Below are positions 2,910 to 34,346 of a stretch of 35,767 bases of DNA, in pieces. The position numbers and the translations under genes were made by a program. The stretch is from the IMG/VR virus record IMGVR_UViG_3300027759_000227, positions 1 to 35,767 of that record; one strand, 5' to 3'. The stretch is from a virus. The notes below the pieces were generated by a model. That model did no database searches. It was not told the DNA's origin and saw nothing but the letters and a program-made list of their open reading frames with translations. Positions within the stretch are counted from its first letter, which is position 1, and every line of letters begins with the position of its first letter.

Positions 2910-5900
2910 ATGGCTCAGCTTGAACTTTCAGTAGTCCTAAACCTTGCGAACTTTCGCACGCAGTTGGGCAAACTGGCGCAAGCTTCTGCTGCATATCATT
3001 ACCCTGTCAATTTAACTATTGACAAACAAGCTTTTAAGAAGCAACTTGCGGCGCTTGGTAATATCAAGCCAGTCATTAAAATCAATGATAGTCAGCTTGA
3101 CGGAGCAAGGGCACGGATTGCCACGTTAAATAAAAGTCTTGCGACTCTGCGCAGAGCCACGTCTACCCCCATTGAAATCAAACTTAAATATGTAGAAGTT
3201 GGAAAGCCTTCGTCGGCGGCGGCAGGCCAAATCGGGAAAACTGTATCTGGGAGGATTAGGGCAGACCAGGCAGTGGCAGAATTGAATCGGGAGCAAGCGA
3301 TGGCTGCTCGCAATATGCTGAAAGCGGCCAACGTACCTGTGGGCGGGCTGGGTACAGGTAGATCGCTGGAGGCCTATCGAAAGTCCATCGTCGAGGGAAT
3401 GACGAAGGCTGGAGAGCAATCCATCGCCGGTCTGACTGCAGGGTTCAAGGATGGGGAATCCAAGGTTGCACAAGCTGCCAAAGGCGTGGGAGAAGGTGGC
3501 CTGCGTGCCCTAAAAGACTTCTGGGGCATTGCTTCGCCCTCTCGCGTGTTTAAGCAGATTGGTGAATTTGCTGTTGATGGATTGGAGATTGGCTTCCTCA
3601 ATGGACTGAAAGATTTTAAAAATAAGTCCGTAGATGAAATCAGAAAAATTACGGCGTTATTGAAGTTTGAACTAGCAAAAGTTTCAAACATTGCCATGGC
3701 GCCCGGAATGTCTCGTTCCGTAGGGTCGCGTGGATCTGATCAATTTATGTCGCCTATCGGTCCCCTCCCTGAAGGCAGCCGAGAACCATGGGCTTTCAGC
3801 CAATACAGGTATCAACCTTTCATGGCGCAGCCGGGTCAGACACGCGGGGCCAACGTGCCGCCCATGAGGGCACGATTCCCATTTGCGGAGGCTCCGTCAA
3901 TCATGGGGACGACTACCTCCCCAAGCATGTTTGGCGCAAGCTTCCCCGCGCTACCTTCCGCTGGAATGACCGGAGGAAATGCAGTACGACAGGCGCAATT
4001 ACAGTCGCGGATGGCTGCTGCATACGCAAGATCTGCAGCGCGAGAGGCTAGCGTTCTTGGCGAAAGTCAAATGTATGCAAGTGTTTCTGGACAGGTACCC
4101 CTCGGCAATGCCGCTCCACGTCTTCCCGCTGGAAACAGAGGCGGTGCGCTTGCGCTAAGGGACGCAGGCGCACAGACACCATTAAGCCTGGATTACTACA
4201 AGAATGCATTTAAGTATTCCGAAGCGTTGAAAGTAGCTGACGCTTCGGCGCGAAACTTTAGTGCATCACAGCTTCCATTGATTGGAGGAATTAAGGGCTT
4301 AGCTGGAGAATTTGGACAGGCAGCAAAGCAAGTACTACTTTACGGCGCCGCATACAAAGGATTAGCTTTTCTGACAAGCCTTCCAGGACAAATTCTTGAT
4401 GCTGCAAAGAGTCAGCAGCAATTTGTAAATGGACTGAAAGTTGCCACTCAAGATACGGGCACATTTGCCAAGGAACTTTTGTACGTGGACAACGTGCAAC
4501 GAGCCTTTGGCTTGAACCTTGAAACTACTCGCACGGGATTTACCAGGCTTTATGCTTCAATGGCTCCAACGGGCTTTGATTCTGGCTCCATTGAAAAACT
4601 TTTTACTGGCATCAGTGCAGCCACTGCAGCGCTGCAACTAACACCGGACAAAGCTGAGCGCGTCATCTATGCCTTCGGGCAGATGGCAAGCAAGGGCCAG
4701 ATCATGAGCGAAGAGCTTAAGGGGCAGTTGGGAGACGTTCTACCTGGCGCTCTGGCAATTTTTGCTAAGTCCGCTGGAATGTCTGTGAAGGAATTCAGCA
4801 AAGCGATGGAAGACGGAGAATTTGTTGGCAATCGTTTCAGGGAGGTTTTTGCAAAGGTAAGCGACGAGCTTATGAACCGCTTCGGCACTGGCGCTCAAGC
4901 GGCTGGCAAGTCGTTACAAGGCTTAATTAATACCGTGGGCGGCGACTTTAAACGAGTTCTAGAAAGCTTCTCCCCATTGGCGAATTCTGCCGCTCAAGCC
5001 GTTCTTGGACCGTTGGGAGGCTCCCTGAAACAATTGGCATTATCAGCGCAGATCGCCACAGGCGAGATTGAGCGTGTCTTTATGCAATTGAAGGAGTCCC
5101 AACAAGAATTGAAAGACTTGCAAGATTCTGCTGGCACTGATGGAATCATTACTGCAGATGAGGCTAGACAAATTAAAGCAGCGGAGCAGAACGTAGCAGC
5201 TTTGACGACCAAGTACAAGAGCTTGCAGAAAACCGCAAGTGATCCTGCTATTGCAAAACAAGCTCAAGAAATTACAAAGTTTACGGAAGAGCTGGGAAAG
5301 GCTGGCACATTCGTTATGAACGTAGCCAAGTCGATTGGGGGCGTGTTGTCGCCTGTATTAAATTTCTTGGGCACTAATTTAACCACTGTAATTAGCCTAA
5401 TCACTTCTTTTTACATTGGTTTTCAAACTGCACGATTGGCGGCCATGGCGCTTATGGGAGTGCTGTTGCTATATAGAACGATTAGCACTGCACTTGGATT
5501 GAGCGCTGCGGCACAACAGACAACTGCTCTGGCTGGCGCTTTTAATGTTTTAGGCGTTAATGCTACACGCGCAAATGTTGCGTTAATTGGCACCAGAGTG
5601 GCAATGACGGCATTGGTTTCTGCCACCGTCATCGGCGCAGTCGTTGCTGGCATTATTGCCATTGCATCTGCATTTACCACCATGAAAGACCGCGCCAAAG
5701 AGGCTGCGGAAGAATCCAGGCGAGCAGTAGAAGAAGGTGGACGCGCTGCAAGTATGGGAATGACAATGGGTGTTACGACCCAACTTAACCAGGAATTGGC
5801 CAAGAATAGGGCAGTCGCGAAAGGCATCGAGACCCTTCAAAAAGTTTATGACAGAAACAAAGGCAAAATGATGGGCACCAAGCCGATCATTTCGGTTGAA

Positions 5901-8087
5901 GAGATGGCAAGGCTTAAGGCAGCGGCTGAATATTCCAATGAAATTGCTGGTATTATTTCTGGCAATCAATTCAAGGACGATGGTTTTCAAATCAGTGCGT
6001 TTCAAGCTCCCGATCTGTCGAGAGCAAAGCAACAGGCCGGACAGATTAGCGCTGAAGTTAGAAAAAGTAGCACAATCTTAAAGGCGCAGCAAAAGCAATC
6101 TCAAGCAGCAGAGAAAGAACTTGGCTTGAACAAACCCACGCCAGGAGTCACCCCGCCCGAAACTCCCGAAGAAGACAAAAAGAAAACAAGTCTTGAAAGC
6201 TACTACAGCCTCCAGGATACATTGGCAAAAAATGCTGCCGACTTTGCAGCAGCGCAAACTGAAGAAGAATTTCGCCACAAAATAGAACTTCTTGAAATGT
6301 ATTATGACATTCAAGAGACACGCGCTAATGCCTATCAGAGAGATGCTATAAAGTTTGAACGTGAAATGGTAATGATTGAAGCAAGGCGCCAGGAGGCGCG
6401 ACTGAAGGCGCAACTAGACGTGCAACGGGCGCAGGCAAGTGTTGCAGGCGGCGTAGATGGAGGCTTGTCCACTACGGGGGCCACCGGCCTGCTGCAAGGC
6501 AACACAGGTATATCAGGCGGGGCGCACTTTCATATCAGTAGAGCAGATGGAAGCCCCATTAGCGCAGATCAGGCGCGTGCGATGCTTGACCCTTCAGTTC
6601 GACGCCAAGTAACTAAGACCAGTGACTATGGCCCCCGTCGGGCTCCAGTACCAGGAGCGAGCACCTTCCACCGAGGAGTTGATCTTGCGGGACCAGCCAA
6701 TACGCCATTGAATCTGGCGCCTGGTTATTCGATGGTTGGCCAAGGGGAAGCAGGCGGACTTGGCTACGCTGCCTCAATACAAGGCCCTCAAGGGGAAATG
6801 TATAAAGTCGGACACTTGCAACGTCCTGCTGCAGGGGCTGGAGCCGCTCGCAAAGTGCCAAGCAGCGAAAAAAGAGATGCCGTTGCGGAACAAAAAACAC
6901 TTCAAGCTTCCATCGCTAAAACAGCTACAGAGCGAATGGCCGATGCAAAGGCAGTTCAGGAGCAAATTGTAGCCCTGGAAAAATATCGAGCCAGTGCATT
7001 TCCGACTATTGAACAAGAAACCCAAAATAAACTTCTTGCTAAGCGCAACGAACTTTTTAAGAGCGGAATGACCGATGAACGGATTGACCAAGAGATTAAG
7101 CTTTACGAGAATCAACAGCGAGGCGCGGCAGCACTAGCTGTTGTGCAAAAATTATACGATGGCAACATAATAAAGTTAGATAAATACAATGAATTAATGG
7201 CAGTATTGAATAACGATATTGCCACTCAGAACGTCTTACTGGGACAGAATGCATCTTTAATGGCGCAAGCAAAATTTGACCAGACCATGAAAGGCATACG
7301 AGACCAAATTGACATGGCAAGAGCTTTGACGCCCGAGCAGGAGATGCGCACGCAAATTGCGCAAGAAGGTTATACGGGCACAGAGGCAGAATCCATTTTC
7401 CAAGGGCGAAAAACCCTGCAAAGCGCTGAAAAACTTAAGGCAGATATGCAAGGAATTGCAGGCGCCATAGGAGACTCTTTTGGCGAAGCATTCAAGGGCA
7501 TTGTCACTGGCAGCATGACGGCGCAAGAGGCCCTGGCAGGCTTCTTCCAAAGTGTTGGCAATTACTTTGCTGATATGGTTGCGCAAATGATCACTGAATG
7601 GCTAAAGGCTCAGTTGATCAAAGGATTCATGAGCCTATTCCCTGGTGGCAGTGCGCTAGCAAGTGGATTTAGCGGCTCAGCGGCTGGCTTTGGTGGGTCG
7701 TTTGACGCTGGCATTCCAGCCATAGGAAATACAACTGACTTTAGCGGCGCCTTCAAATTCGCCAACGGAGGCATTGCTCTTGGCGGCTTCACTGCATTCG
7801 CTAACGGAGGCATCGTCACAGGCCCCACGCTAGGCCTCGTAGGCGAAGGGAAATACAACGAGGCAGTCATTCCCCTTCCAGACGGCAAGAGCGTCCCCGT
7901 GCGGCTCTCGGGGGGCGATGGCGGTAATCAAATCAATAGCAACATCACAGTCAACGTAAGCAACGGTCAAGCGCAAAGCAATGCCACAGGCTCTAACTCT
8001 TCAGAATTAGGGCGTAAAATTGAAGGAGCAGTAAAACAAGTCATTGTTGGTGAACTTCGTCCTGGCGGGCTTCTTGCTTCTCGCTAA
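2910..8087 (+). CDS. Tail tape measure protein with embedded permuted M23-like peptidase domain
   Basis: This 1725-residue protein is the largest in the window. It sets tail length and is expelled during DNA entry. The N-terminal third has helices and an 'IASPSRVFKQIGEFAVDGL' segment near residue 208. Residues about 490-650 match the tape-measure core ('LFTGISAATAALQL', 'ASKGQIMSEELKGQLGDVLP'). Hydrophobic segments lie near 820-860 and 890-925. Residues about 1190-1306 hold M23 metallopeptidase motifs in permuted order: H1206-F-H1208, then H1254-x3-D1258, then H1302. The C-terminus has the usual 'GFFQSVGNYFADMVAQM' and 'GEGKYNEAVIPL' segments. By the usual rule of about 0.15 nm per residue the tail would be near 250 nm. 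Identity is very secure; peptidase activity is inferred. Confidence 0.95.
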   Translation: MAQLELSVVLNLANFRTQLGKLAQASAAYHYPVNLTIDKQAFKKQLAALGNIKPVIKINDSQLDGARARIATLNKSLATLRRATSTPIEIKLKYVEVGKPSSAAAGQIGKTVSGRIRADQAVAELNREQAMAARNMLKAANVPVGGLGTGRSLEAYRKSIVEGMTKAGEQSIAGLTAGFKDGESKVAQAAKGVGEGGLRALKDFWGIASPSRVFKQIGEFAVDGLEIGFLNGLKDFKNKSVDEIRKITALLKFELAKVSNIAMAPGMSRSVGSRGSDQFMSPIGPLPEGSREPWAFSQYRYQPFMAQPGQTRGANVPPMRARFPFAEAPSIMGTTTSPSMFGASFPALPSAGMTGGNAVRQAQLQSRMAAAYARSAAREASVLGESQMYASVSGQVPLGNAAPRLPAGNRGGALALRDAGAQTPLSLDYYKNAFKYSEALKVADASARNFSASQLPLIGGIKGLAGEFGQAAKQVLLYGAAYKGLAFLTSLPGQILDAAKSQQQFVNGLKVATQDTGTFAKELLYVDNVQRAFGLNLETTRTGFTRLYASMAPTGFDSGSIEKLFTGISAATAALQLTPDKAERVIYAFGQMASKGQIMSEELKGQLGDVLPGALAIFAKSAGMSVKEFSKAMEDGEFVGNRFREVFAKVSDELMNRFGTGAQAAGKSLQGLINTVGGDFKRVLESFSPLANSAAQAVLGPLGGSLKQLALSAQIATGEIERVFMQLKESQQELKDLQDSAGTDGIITADEARQIKAAEQNVAALTTKYKSLQKTASDPAIAKQAQEITKFTEELGKAGTFVMNVAKSIGGVLSPVLNFLGTNLTTVISLITSFYIGFQTARLAAMALMGVLLLYRTISTALGLSAAAQQTTALAGAFNVLGVNATRANVALIGTRVAMTALVSATVIGAVVAGIIAIASAFTTMKDRAKEAAEESRRAVEEGGRAASMGMTMGVTTQLNQELAKNRAVAKGIETLQKVYDRNKGKMMGTKPIISVEEMARLKAAAEYSNEIAGIISGNQFKDDGFQISAFQAPDLSRAKQQAGQISAEVRKSSTILKAQQKQSQAAEKELGLNKPTPGVTPPETPEEDKKKTSLESYYSLQDTLAKNAADFAAAQTEEEFRHKIELLEMYYDIQETRANAYQRDAIKFEREMVMIEARRQEARLKAQLDVQRAQASVAGGVDGGLSTTGATGLLQGNTGISGGAHFHISRADGSPISADQARAMLDPSVRRQVTKTSDYGPRRAPVPGASTFHRGVDLAGPANTPLNLAPGYSMVGQGEAGGLGYAASIQGPQGEMYKVGHLQRPAAGAGAARKVPSSEKRDAVAEQKTLQASIAKTATERMADAKAVQEQIVALEKYRASAFPTIEQETQNKLLAKRNELFKSGMTDERIDQEIKLYENQQRGAAALAVVQKLYDGNIIKLDKYNELMAVLNNDIATQNVLLGQNASLMAQAKFDQTMKGIRDQIDMARALTPEQEMRTQIAQEGYTGTEAESIFQGRKTLQSAEKLKADMQGIAGAIGDSFGEAFKGIVTGSMTAQEALAGFFQSVGNYFADMVAQMITEWLKAQLIKGFMSLFPGGSALASGFSGSAAGFGGSFDAGIPAIGNTTDFSGAFKFANGGIALGGFTAFANGGIVTGPTLGLVGEGKYNEAVIPLPDGKSVPVRLSGGDGGNQINSNITVNVSNGQAQSNATGSNSSELGRKIEGAVKQVIVGELRPGGLLASR

Positions 8088-30967: not shown

Positions 30968-31366
30968 TTATTTTAGGCCGTCCATGGTCCAAGTAATACG
31001 TAGCTCGCCGCCAAGAGCCTTTACGTCGTCGCTGGCGCTCTCAGGAGCCTCGTGAACGATCATCACGGAAGGGACGATGGCATTGGGCAAGGGAGTGATT
31101 GTGGCGGCTGGAAACAGCTCCTGGGCTTTGCTGGCAAGCTTGGTGGCAATGGTTTCACGCTCTTCCTTTTCCCATTGCTTCACGAGGGTAGAAGCTTGCT
31201 CGTCTACCCTCTTAATAGTTTGTTCCGTTTTCCATTCCGTCCAGTCTGGCTTGCACCAATTAATCAGCGCAATAAACCATGGTTTCAAACGCAATGAAGG
31301 CCGCTTATCAGCAGCCCACATAGCTAGTTCATAACAAAGCGCATTGAATATGGATTGCTGGGTCAC
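30968..31366 (-). CDS. Unknown protein downstream of the endolysin
   Basis: A 132-residue protein, last gene of the - strand lysis run. Its start overlaps the endolysin stop by four bases, so it is co-translated. It has a Trp-rich N-terminal part ('NALCYELAMWAADKRP', 'WFIALINWCKPDWTEW') with helical segments, followed by a charged stretch (about 45-70). No clear membrane segment or motif. Its place suggests a lysis accessory or an unrelated passenger; neither is supported directly. Confidence 0.55.
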   Translation of the reverse strand: MTQQSIFNALCYELAMWAADKRPSLRLKPWFIALINWCKPDWTEWKTEQTIKRVDEQASTLVKQWEKEERETIATKLASKAQELFPAATITPLPNAIVPSVMIVHEAPESASDDVKALGGELRITWTMDGLK

Positions 31367-32316
31367 GCTTCTTGATAAACAGAAACAAAGATGGAGCCAG
31401 TTTTTAGCAAGGGCACAACTTTGTCGCGAAGATCAATATTATGACAACGAACGCACCCATGAGTGGGAAATAGCGCTTGTTTTGGAGCCCATGCACCAGG
31501 CCATCCACAAGCAGATCCGCCGCCATGAATCATAATTCCTGCTCTGCCATGCTTTGCTTCTTGATTTTCTAGCTCAATCAAGTCAAGACTGTACCAACCG
31601 TATGACATCAAGGTGCGATCATAAGTTGGCTTGTCTCCTACTCTTTCGTGGTCACGATATACAGTGCCAATTTTATACATGCCAGGAGGTGTGTCGGAAT
31701 TAGTCACCTTCCATTCAGACTCGCTGCTTTGCCCACGAGCCAAACAGTCAACTTCCCAAAGAAGCTTTCCTTCAAAGGAAAACGCTTTCATCCTTTCAGA
31801 GGCATCATTCACAATCAAGTGAGAGTCGCCTGCTTTGAAGCCAAAGTCTTGCGGGCGTTTCTTCGGACCAATTAAAGCCATGGGAGGAGGGATAATGAGA
31901 GATTCAGGAGCATATTGCTTCATCAGCCGCGAAAGCTTGGCAGGGTAGTCAGGATCAGTGGCATAGCCTTGATCTTTGAGCATACGAGCAGCAGCATAGC
32001 GATTGTCGGCCCCATTGACGCCCTTGTAAGATTGCCAATCTTTATACCAATGGACCACTAAATATTCAATGCAAGCAGCAAGACTGGGAAAGTCAATAAA
32101 CCCCGCCTTAATGGTCACCCATTTGCCATCGTAAAACTCTTTAGTCTCACGAGAGCTGCCAATGCCTTTTAAGCCAAAATAATTATGCGTGCCAGAAGTG
32201 TGTTTGCCAAAATTGCTTTCTAGCGCCCATTGTGCTGCTACTAGCTCAGGGAATTTAGCCCCCATGCGCTTTGCATGGAGGCTTACGCCCTGCCAAGTAT
32301 TGGCAATATCAGGCAT
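31363..32316 (-). CDS. Endolysin: glucosaminidase-like domain fused to L,D-transpeptidase (YkuD) domain
   Basis: A 317-residue protein with two peptidoglycan-active parts. Residues about 1-140 look like a GH73-type glucosaminidase/muramidase, with candidate acid Glu33 in 'AAQWALESNFGKH' and 'YFGLKG' near 46. Residues about 160-315 have the YkuD fold: 'LIVNDASERMKAF', 'TPPGMYKIGTVY', H264-G265, and the active-site motif T285-H286-G287-C288 with R290 in 'PTHGCVRCHN'. No signal peptide is visible, so export would need a holin. It shares one base with the holin candidate upstream (TGATG). The fold calls are secure; the role of the YkuD part in lysis is inferred. Confidence 0.9.
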   Translation of the reverse strand: MPDIANTWQGVSLHAKRMGAKFPELVAAQWALESNFGKHTSGTHNYFGLKGIGSSRETKEFYDGKWVTIKAGFIDFPSLAACIEYLVVHWYKDWQSYKGVNGADNRYAAARMLKDQGYATDPDYPAKLSRLMKQYAPESLIIPPPMALIGPKKRPQDFGFKAGDSHLIVNDASERMKAFSFEGKLLWEVDCLARGQSSESEWKVTNSDTPPGMYKIGTVYRDHERVGDKPTYDRTLMSYGWYSLDLIELENQEAKHGRAGIMIHGGGSACGWPGAWAPKQALFPTHGCVRCHNIDLRDKVVPLLKTGSIFVSVYQEA

Positions 32317-33638: not shown

Positions 33639-34346
33639 TCAGAATTGGTAGTTGTTTTCAGCGAAGGCATCAAAGGCTTCTGGAGCCACTGGCCTTCCTA
33701 GTTCAAGGAGCGCCTTAGCGTAAGACACAATTTCTCCTTGAGCACCTTTGCCAATGCGCAGGGAGATGAAATGGAACAGAGCCTGTAAAGAACAAGTCCA
33801 GACGAAACTGGTATAAAGCGCTGAGGGCAGGATGGCTCTAGACTGCTCCTTGCTCACCCCTGTCAGTAGAAGCCCCTCGTAGGCATTTTGGCAAGCGTGC
33901 AAGGCACGAACGTACTGCATAAGGGCTAATCCTTGCTTGTCGGCAGGAAGGGCTCCTGCAGAGGCCTGGCGGTTGTCCTCGCTTTGCTGGAGGAACTCAA
34001 TGGGAATGTAAAATTCAGCACTTTCTGCCGCACAGTAACGAAAGCTTTTTTCGTTCCAGCCAAGTTGATCATCAACAAACGTAGAAGCGACTGTGTGCTT
34101 CCACCATTGTCTGGCGATGAACAACGGAGCCTTCACTGACCACTTAAATACCACACCCCTAAAAGGAGAAGTGTGATGATGCTTTGCGAGGTAGCGAAGA
34201 AGCTTACCGTCGCGTTCTGTCCATTCTGCGCTTTCTGCATCAAAAGACTGGCGAGCATCATTGACAACAGAAAGGCTATTCCCCATGGAATCAAGTAGGC
34301 GAAGAGAGCTTTTACCATCGCCTAGAGGATCAAGCGAAGTCGTCAT
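33639..34346 (-). CDS. thyX: Flavin-dependent thymidylate synthase ThyX (variant motif)
   Basis: A 235-residue enzyme that makes dTMP from dUMP using folate and FAD. It shows the ThyX order: 'HHHTSPFRGVVFKWSVKAP' near 56-74, 'FIARQWWKHTVAS' (76-88), 'NEKSFRY' (98-104), 'SRAILP' (169-174), and 'LRIGKGAQGEIVSYA' near the end. The canonical Q-W-x-R-H-R-x7-S signature is altered: Lys and Thr replace the two Arg, and about nine residues (TFVDDQLGW) separate it from the NE-x-S motif. Its stop is three bases before the DUF3310 start, and its start overlaps the upstream gene by four bases. Identity is secure; activity of the variant site is inferred. Confidence 0.92.
   Translation of the reverse strand: MTTSLDPLGDGKSSLRLLDSMGNSLSVVNDARQSFDAESAEWTERDGKLLRYLAKHHHTSPFRGVVFKWSVKAPLFIARQWWKHTVASTFVDDQLGWNEKSFRYCAAESAEFYIPIEFLQQSEDNRQASAGALPADKQGLALMQYVRALHACQNAYEGLLLTGVSKEQSRAILPSALYTSFVWTCSLQALFHFISLRIGKGAQGEIVSYAKALLELGRPVAPEAFDAFAENNYQF

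Follow-up and report, generated by a model that had tools for sequence, protein, structure and literature searches.

A putative circularly permuted M23 peptidase domain in an exchangeable slot of a phage tape measure protein

M23 peptidases (PF01551; e.g., LytM, lysostaphin, MepM, 3slu and ShyA) share with the domain analysed here the five motif residues, the GxTGxSxGxHxH, HxGxD and HL signatures and the strand order inside each half. In this family, the second His of the HxH motif is a zinc ligand, and LytM His260 is a further catalytic His located about 30 residues before HxH (PMC9662197). The permuted group described below differs from these peptidases in that its two halves are rotated, the VxxGQxVxxGQ strand of canonical M23 is mostly missing, the listed Pfam scores fall below the cut-off and HxD mostly replaces HxH. 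M23 belongs to the LAS metallopeptidases together with M15 and hedgehog; the domain studied here matches M23, and neither M15 nor hedgehog, while 18 related tape measure proteins carry a hedgehog-like domain in the same slot. Hydrolase-like domains embedded in a tape measure rod are also known. In mycobacteriophage TM4, a motif of the tape measure protein (mt3) is reported to have a peptidoglycan-hydrolysing activity that aids infection of stationary cells (PMC1796659), and the abstract of that study does not describe the motif as M23. Two tape measure proteins related to ours (L010 and L008) likewise embed such a domain, which is an M23 in canonical order, unlike the one reported here. Moreover, permutation is established in a cell-wall hydrolase superfamily, that of the permuted NlpC/P60 families (YaeF/poxvirus G6R, LRAT-like; cited in PMC6403190); NlpC/P60 is a cysteine peptidase fold, whereas M23 is an unrelated metallopeptidase fold. 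A full-text literature search, with most subscription papers outside its reach, returned no description of a permuted M23, and a prior description is possible; the M23 family review (PMC9662197) does not mention permutation.

The window, i.e., the whole stretch of DNA that we analysed, is an IMG/VR virus record of 35,767 bases. Its tape measure gene was identified both by conserved domain and by tail gene context. Indeed, the encoded 1,725-aa protein matches Pfam TMP_3 (78.7 bits), several PHROG families of tail length tape measure proteins (phrog_2335 being the best, E 3.6e-60) and the NCBIfam model tape_meas_nterm, and its downstream neighbours are minor tail genes of the lambda type and a homologue of the central tail fiber J. 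The best named relative comes from Synechococcus phage S-CBS4 and is likewise a tail length tape measure protein (31% of the query aligned, at 44% identity), and therefore the host of the virus is likely a cyanobacterium. The window also encodes, opposite to the tail genes, an endolysin homologue as a separate gene (31363-32316, minus strand; phrog_10051, 196.7 bits), and a thymidylate synthase homologue (33639-34346, minus strand; phrog_85, 178.9 bits). The features of the tape measure gene are as follows.

2910..8087, plus strand: tape measure protein, 1,725 aa, host of the permuted domain (TMP_3, PHROG, NCBIfam, S-CBS4 relative)
6471..6839, plus strand: putative circularly permuted M23 domain, residues about 1188-1310
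6477..6545, plus strand: half B, counterpart of the canonical C-terminal half, GATGLLQGNTGISGGAHFHISRA, residues 1190-1212; carries HxH and aligns with the HxH-containing C-terminal part of solved M23 proteases, e.g., 3slu_A 308-336
6525..6533, plus strand: H1206-F-H1208, the HxH equivalent
6546..6608, plus strand: new connector, residues 1213-1233, leading from the former C-terminus to the former N-terminus; the AF2 model predicts two short helices here (H37-42 and H46-49)
6609..6818, plus strand: half A, counterpart of the canonical N-terminal half, VTKTSDYGPRRAPVPGASTFHRGVDLAGP...MYKVGHL, residues 1234-1303; partial Pfam Peptidase_M23 match, 3slu_A 210-296
6669..6683, plus strand: H1254-x3-D1258, zinc motif of the predicted site, invariant in 63 domains
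6813..6815, plus strand: H1302 ('KVGHL'), corresponding to LytM His260 and identical in all 63 domains

A preliminary description of this DNA had proposed that the HxH motif comes first, followed by HxxxD and by a YxHL-type His, with the residues numbered H1206, H1208, H1254, D1258 and H1302. Translation of ORF 2910-8087 returned exactly these numbers in this rotated order, with GNTGISGGAHFHIS starting at residue 1197. The same description had regarded a second HxH after H1302 as evidence against permutation, and none occurs in the whole protein. Indeed, HFH at 1206 is the sole HxH among the 1,725 residues, H1254 is the sole start of an HxxxD, and four of the six His of the protein (30, 1123, 1206, 1208, 1254 and 1302) belong to the motif. 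Canonical M23 domains carry HxxxD, the further catalytic His and HxH in this order in one chain; here, the order is HxH-HxxxD-His, and owing to the rotation the counterpart of the further His (H1302) stands after HxH instead of before it. The spacing from HxH to HxxxD is 48 residues in the window and 40-65 residues in relatives.

Sequence comparison identifies this region as an M23 domain of the LytM type in circularly permuted form, and the permuted reading of the preliminary description gained support from swapped matches to solved structures, from profile rotation, from the order kept across phages and from the AF2 strand order. Pfam Peptidase_M23 matches half A only (profile positions 2-55 of 96) with 16.5 bits for a cut-off of 28.7, and two relatives score 15.9 bits (L061) and 14.4 bits (L059), also below this cut-off. 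More generally, 25 of 28 members match Pfam M23 at E up to 10, and all permuted domains with a listed Pfam score fall below the cut-off, because only half of the M23 profile aligns. When a profile of eight permuted domains was compared with solved M23 peptidases, it matched (E 1.4e-12) in two pieces and in swapped order, query 27-115 aligning to 3slu_A 210-296 and the start of the query (1-28) aligning further along the same chain, to 308-336. A profile of 28 sequences (E 3.7e-13) gave the swapped order again in 3slu, 6muk, 5kqb, 6ue4 and 6u2a. Note that ubiquitin matches of the eight-domain profile covered one segment only (21-57) and were taken as chance, and that PDB 9k2v ('Internal protein') was rejected as a solved example, as it matched half A only and was absent from the search with the L059 domain.

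The rotation scan, in which the columns of a canonical profile built from 22 M23 domains were rotated while the test sequences were left untouched, located the cut point. The window domain scored 45.1 bits without rotation and 62.0 bits at cut column 88, within a best-fitting range of columns 84-92; in the canonical consensus, column 88 immediately precedes GQVIAYVGNTG. Of ten diverse permuted domains, nine (window, L015, L020, L051, L077, L157, L002, L158 and L059) peaked at cut columns 76-92; the tenth, the stand-alone protein L061, gave a nearly flat curve with its maximum at column 64. The canonical controls (L010 and L215), in contrast, scored best with no rotation or almost none.

The searches yielded at least 63 distinct permuted domains, carried by tape measure proteins (of cyanophage-like, Moraxella and Acinetobacter phages), by a cyanomyovirus virion protein and by small stand-alone proteins. 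Close and distant tape measure relatives share the permuted order, which is the same in Cyanophage S-TIM54 (with HAH), Moraxella phage Mcat23 and Acinetobacter phage R3177 (with HLD), and Acinetobacter genomes carry it as well. In addition, both halves are present in stand-alone proteins of about 222 aa (e.g., L061), the domain forms the C-terminal end of the L059 protein, and it occurs in a tape-measure-like protein of more than 3,000 residues on a Leptolyngbya PCC 7375 contig. A search of viral contigs with the S-TIM54 domain as query returned no relative. Among 63 domains aligned end to end, H1206, H1254, D1258, H1302, G1256 and G1295 are invariant, this invariance being partly a product of how the set was chosen, namely by profile coverage. 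Position 1208 is Asp in 60 of the 63 and His in the remaining three (window, S-TIM54 and L059). The dN/dS ratio ranged from 0.076 to 0.096 in the four window pairs with estimable dS, these values being rough as dS was 1.3-3.0, near or beyond saturation, and undefined in the other pairs. Together with the profile matches and the invariant residues, they place the arrangement above chance expectation.

A divergent C-terminal version is found in gp33 of P60, a Synechococcus podovirus virion protein (L287:2778-5780), in which HLD comes first and the His of HxxxD is displaced. As a separate observation, this His has seemingly moved upstream in L006, L230-L239 and P60 gp33 (HQRRGSHGWDY, HRNRGSFGVDF), which look like divergent permuted M23-like domains.

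The AF2 model built from 28 sequences was confident (pLDDT 87.3, pTM 0.81), and in our own comparison its predicted strands fit the places that they would have in a rotated M23 sheet. Searched with Foldseek against viral models, it gave top five matches with E up to 4.2e-03, four of which span 143-153 columns and one 68; the 143-153-column matches, of about full length, are to other virion proteins and include those of S-TIM5 and P60 as well as an uncultured tape measure protein. Alignments to the ACG-2014f lysozyme and to a viral Peptidase M23 model covered 68-69 columns (E 0.24 and 0.76, not significant alone), which is the extent that a single half would give when aligned in sequence order. 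In the PDB, Foldseek gave no M23 among the matches listed and nothing at E<=0.001, and the M23 fold of the domain is thus supported mainly by sequence.

The slot that holds the domain in the tape measure rod is a cassette, as homologous tape measure proteins hold different domains there. After removal of copies, 61 proteins (window included) were surveyed, 11 of which were truncated. The 50 others were classed as permuted M23 (10), L006 type (8), hedgehog-like (18), L007 type (3), canonical M23 (2) and none (9), although these counts are biased because the loci were fetched using some of the same domains as queries. The canonical M23 cassettes, those of L010 and L008, score 47.9 and 47.6 bits. 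Among the nine proteins classed as none, three (L024, L026 and L036) have an NlpC/P60-like segment, which reaches 32 bits in L026 and L036 for a cut-off of 23, and two (L019 and L025) have no obvious domain in the slot. Glycan hydrolase-like domains also neighbour the permuted domain, with an adjoining SLT transglycosylase in L051 (84.8 bits), a weak, sub-threshold transglycosylase/lysozyme-like segment in the Leptolyngbya protein (17.5 bits) and, in P60 gp33, a tail-lysozyme match that also stays under its threshold (24.3 vs 28.2 bits).

Two other cassettes deserve mention in their own right. The one of L007, L013 and L014 reads 'GWVHGHFQ...GVGAIDVFMPKGTQ...LMHLDP' and resembles a permuted M23 relative in which Val stands for the His of HxxxD; the single member scanned had no Pfam match. 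The hedgehog-like cassette (L021, L240-L286), found in the slot of the 18 related tape measure proteins, shows NYHEHLAF and then SxHYxGxAxDVP. Its hedgehog matches cover residues 48-82 only (E 0.0035), and the one member that was scanned matched nothing in Pfam. Since an HxH-like motif precedes HxxGxAxD, this cassette may be a permuted hedgehog/M15-like domain; its AF2 model (pLDDT 92.4) matched fragments of PLP enzymes in the PDB, at non-significant level, which leaves the permutation unconfirmed.

Taken as a whole, these data are best explained by a permuted M23 zinc peptidase that sits in an exchangeable slot and cuts peptidoglycan at DNA entry, an explanation that we consider probable. The motif order, the M23 homology, the cut point, the conservation and the use of the slot by other peptidase families are its directly supported parts. 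Residues about 1188-1310 would form one complete M23/LytM-fold zinc peptidase with a circularly permuted chain, in which a connector of roughly 20 residues would join the old termini and the new termini would open just before the GxxIAYVGNTG strand, so that the HxH motif comes ahead of both HxxxD and the YxHL His. The fold would close within a single chain and the site would bind zinc. The domain would occupy a rod slot that phages exchange for other cell-wall peptidases, and the tape measure protein, when leaving the tail, would clip peptidoglycan peptides and let the DNA pass. Indeed, the interchangeable peptidase cassettes and the adjacent glycan hydrolases make it likely that the domain cuts peptidoglycan peptides during DNA entry.

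As position 1208 corresponds to an M23 zinc ligand, the Asp found there would give most relatives a His/Asp/Asp site, and HxD is also found in canonical-order domains (L053, L184, L215 and L228). The replacement of the second His in 60 of the 63 permuted domains, together with the existence of inactive LytM domains (PMC9662197), could instead indicate a non-catalytic, perhaps peptidoglycan-binding, module of M23-like fold, as in the LytM domains of EnvC and NlpD. We regard such a module as unlikely, because the other four motif residues are invariant over a large divergence, the canonical-order domains with HxD keep their other motifs intact, the window domain itself retains HxH, and both the alternatives in the slot and the neighbouring domains are enzyme families.

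The rotated order also leaves two other arrangements to be weighed. Several copies of the tape measure protein are present per virion, and the motif order alone is silent on which chains pair, so that half B of one copy might complete half A of a neighbouring copy by domain swap. This assembly in trans appears quite improbable given the near-constant length of the connector (40-65 residues from HxH to HxxxD), the confident single-chain AF2 model and the stand-alone proteins that contain both halves. Alternatively, the remnants of two M23 domains, the first broken and the second truncated, could mimic the arrangement and leave no functional permuted domain, and a canonical tandem does exist (L064) whose central junction is like the permuted one. 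Purifying selection, invariant residues in both halves and similar spacing across the 63 domains nevertheless speak against decay, and neither the outer halves nor any further motif His have left a trace in the window protein. A non-functional tandem remnant is thus hardly credible, and it was rejected on conservation grounds.

With the permuted M23 peptidase retained as the preferred reading, its origin can be considered. In a tree of 45 domains computed on shared columns, 18 of 19 permuted rows formed a group within which one canonical row (L215) also fell, and the S-TIM54 domain stood elsewhere on a long branch. The permuted label needs three changes on this tree, and a single permuted clade was neither shown nor rejected (p-AU 0.29). 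In L064, a 396-aa ORF encodes two canonical M23 domains in tandem, and the B1-A2 junction aligns to the permuted profile; duplication followed by trimming is thereby illustrated as a possible route to permutation. More broadly, these domains might belong to a virus-associated branch of LAS metallopeptidases in which M23 (and perhaps, separately, a hedgehog/M15-like domain) was permuted, with termini that allow splicing into ejected rod or internal virion proteins and mostly a His/Asp/Asp zinc site, an extension that we hold as tentative and rather doubtful.

Altogether, the permuted form is built into virion proteins by siphoviruses as well as by a cyanomyovirus and a podovirus, and it was missed by standard domain searches where tested; its sub-threshold scores suggest that cell-wall-entry enzymes of phages are under-annotated. 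The domain would provide a natural case of permutation in an enzyme built into the tape measure rod, and homologous rods with interchangeable peptidase cassettes constitute material for direct tests of their role in DNA entry.
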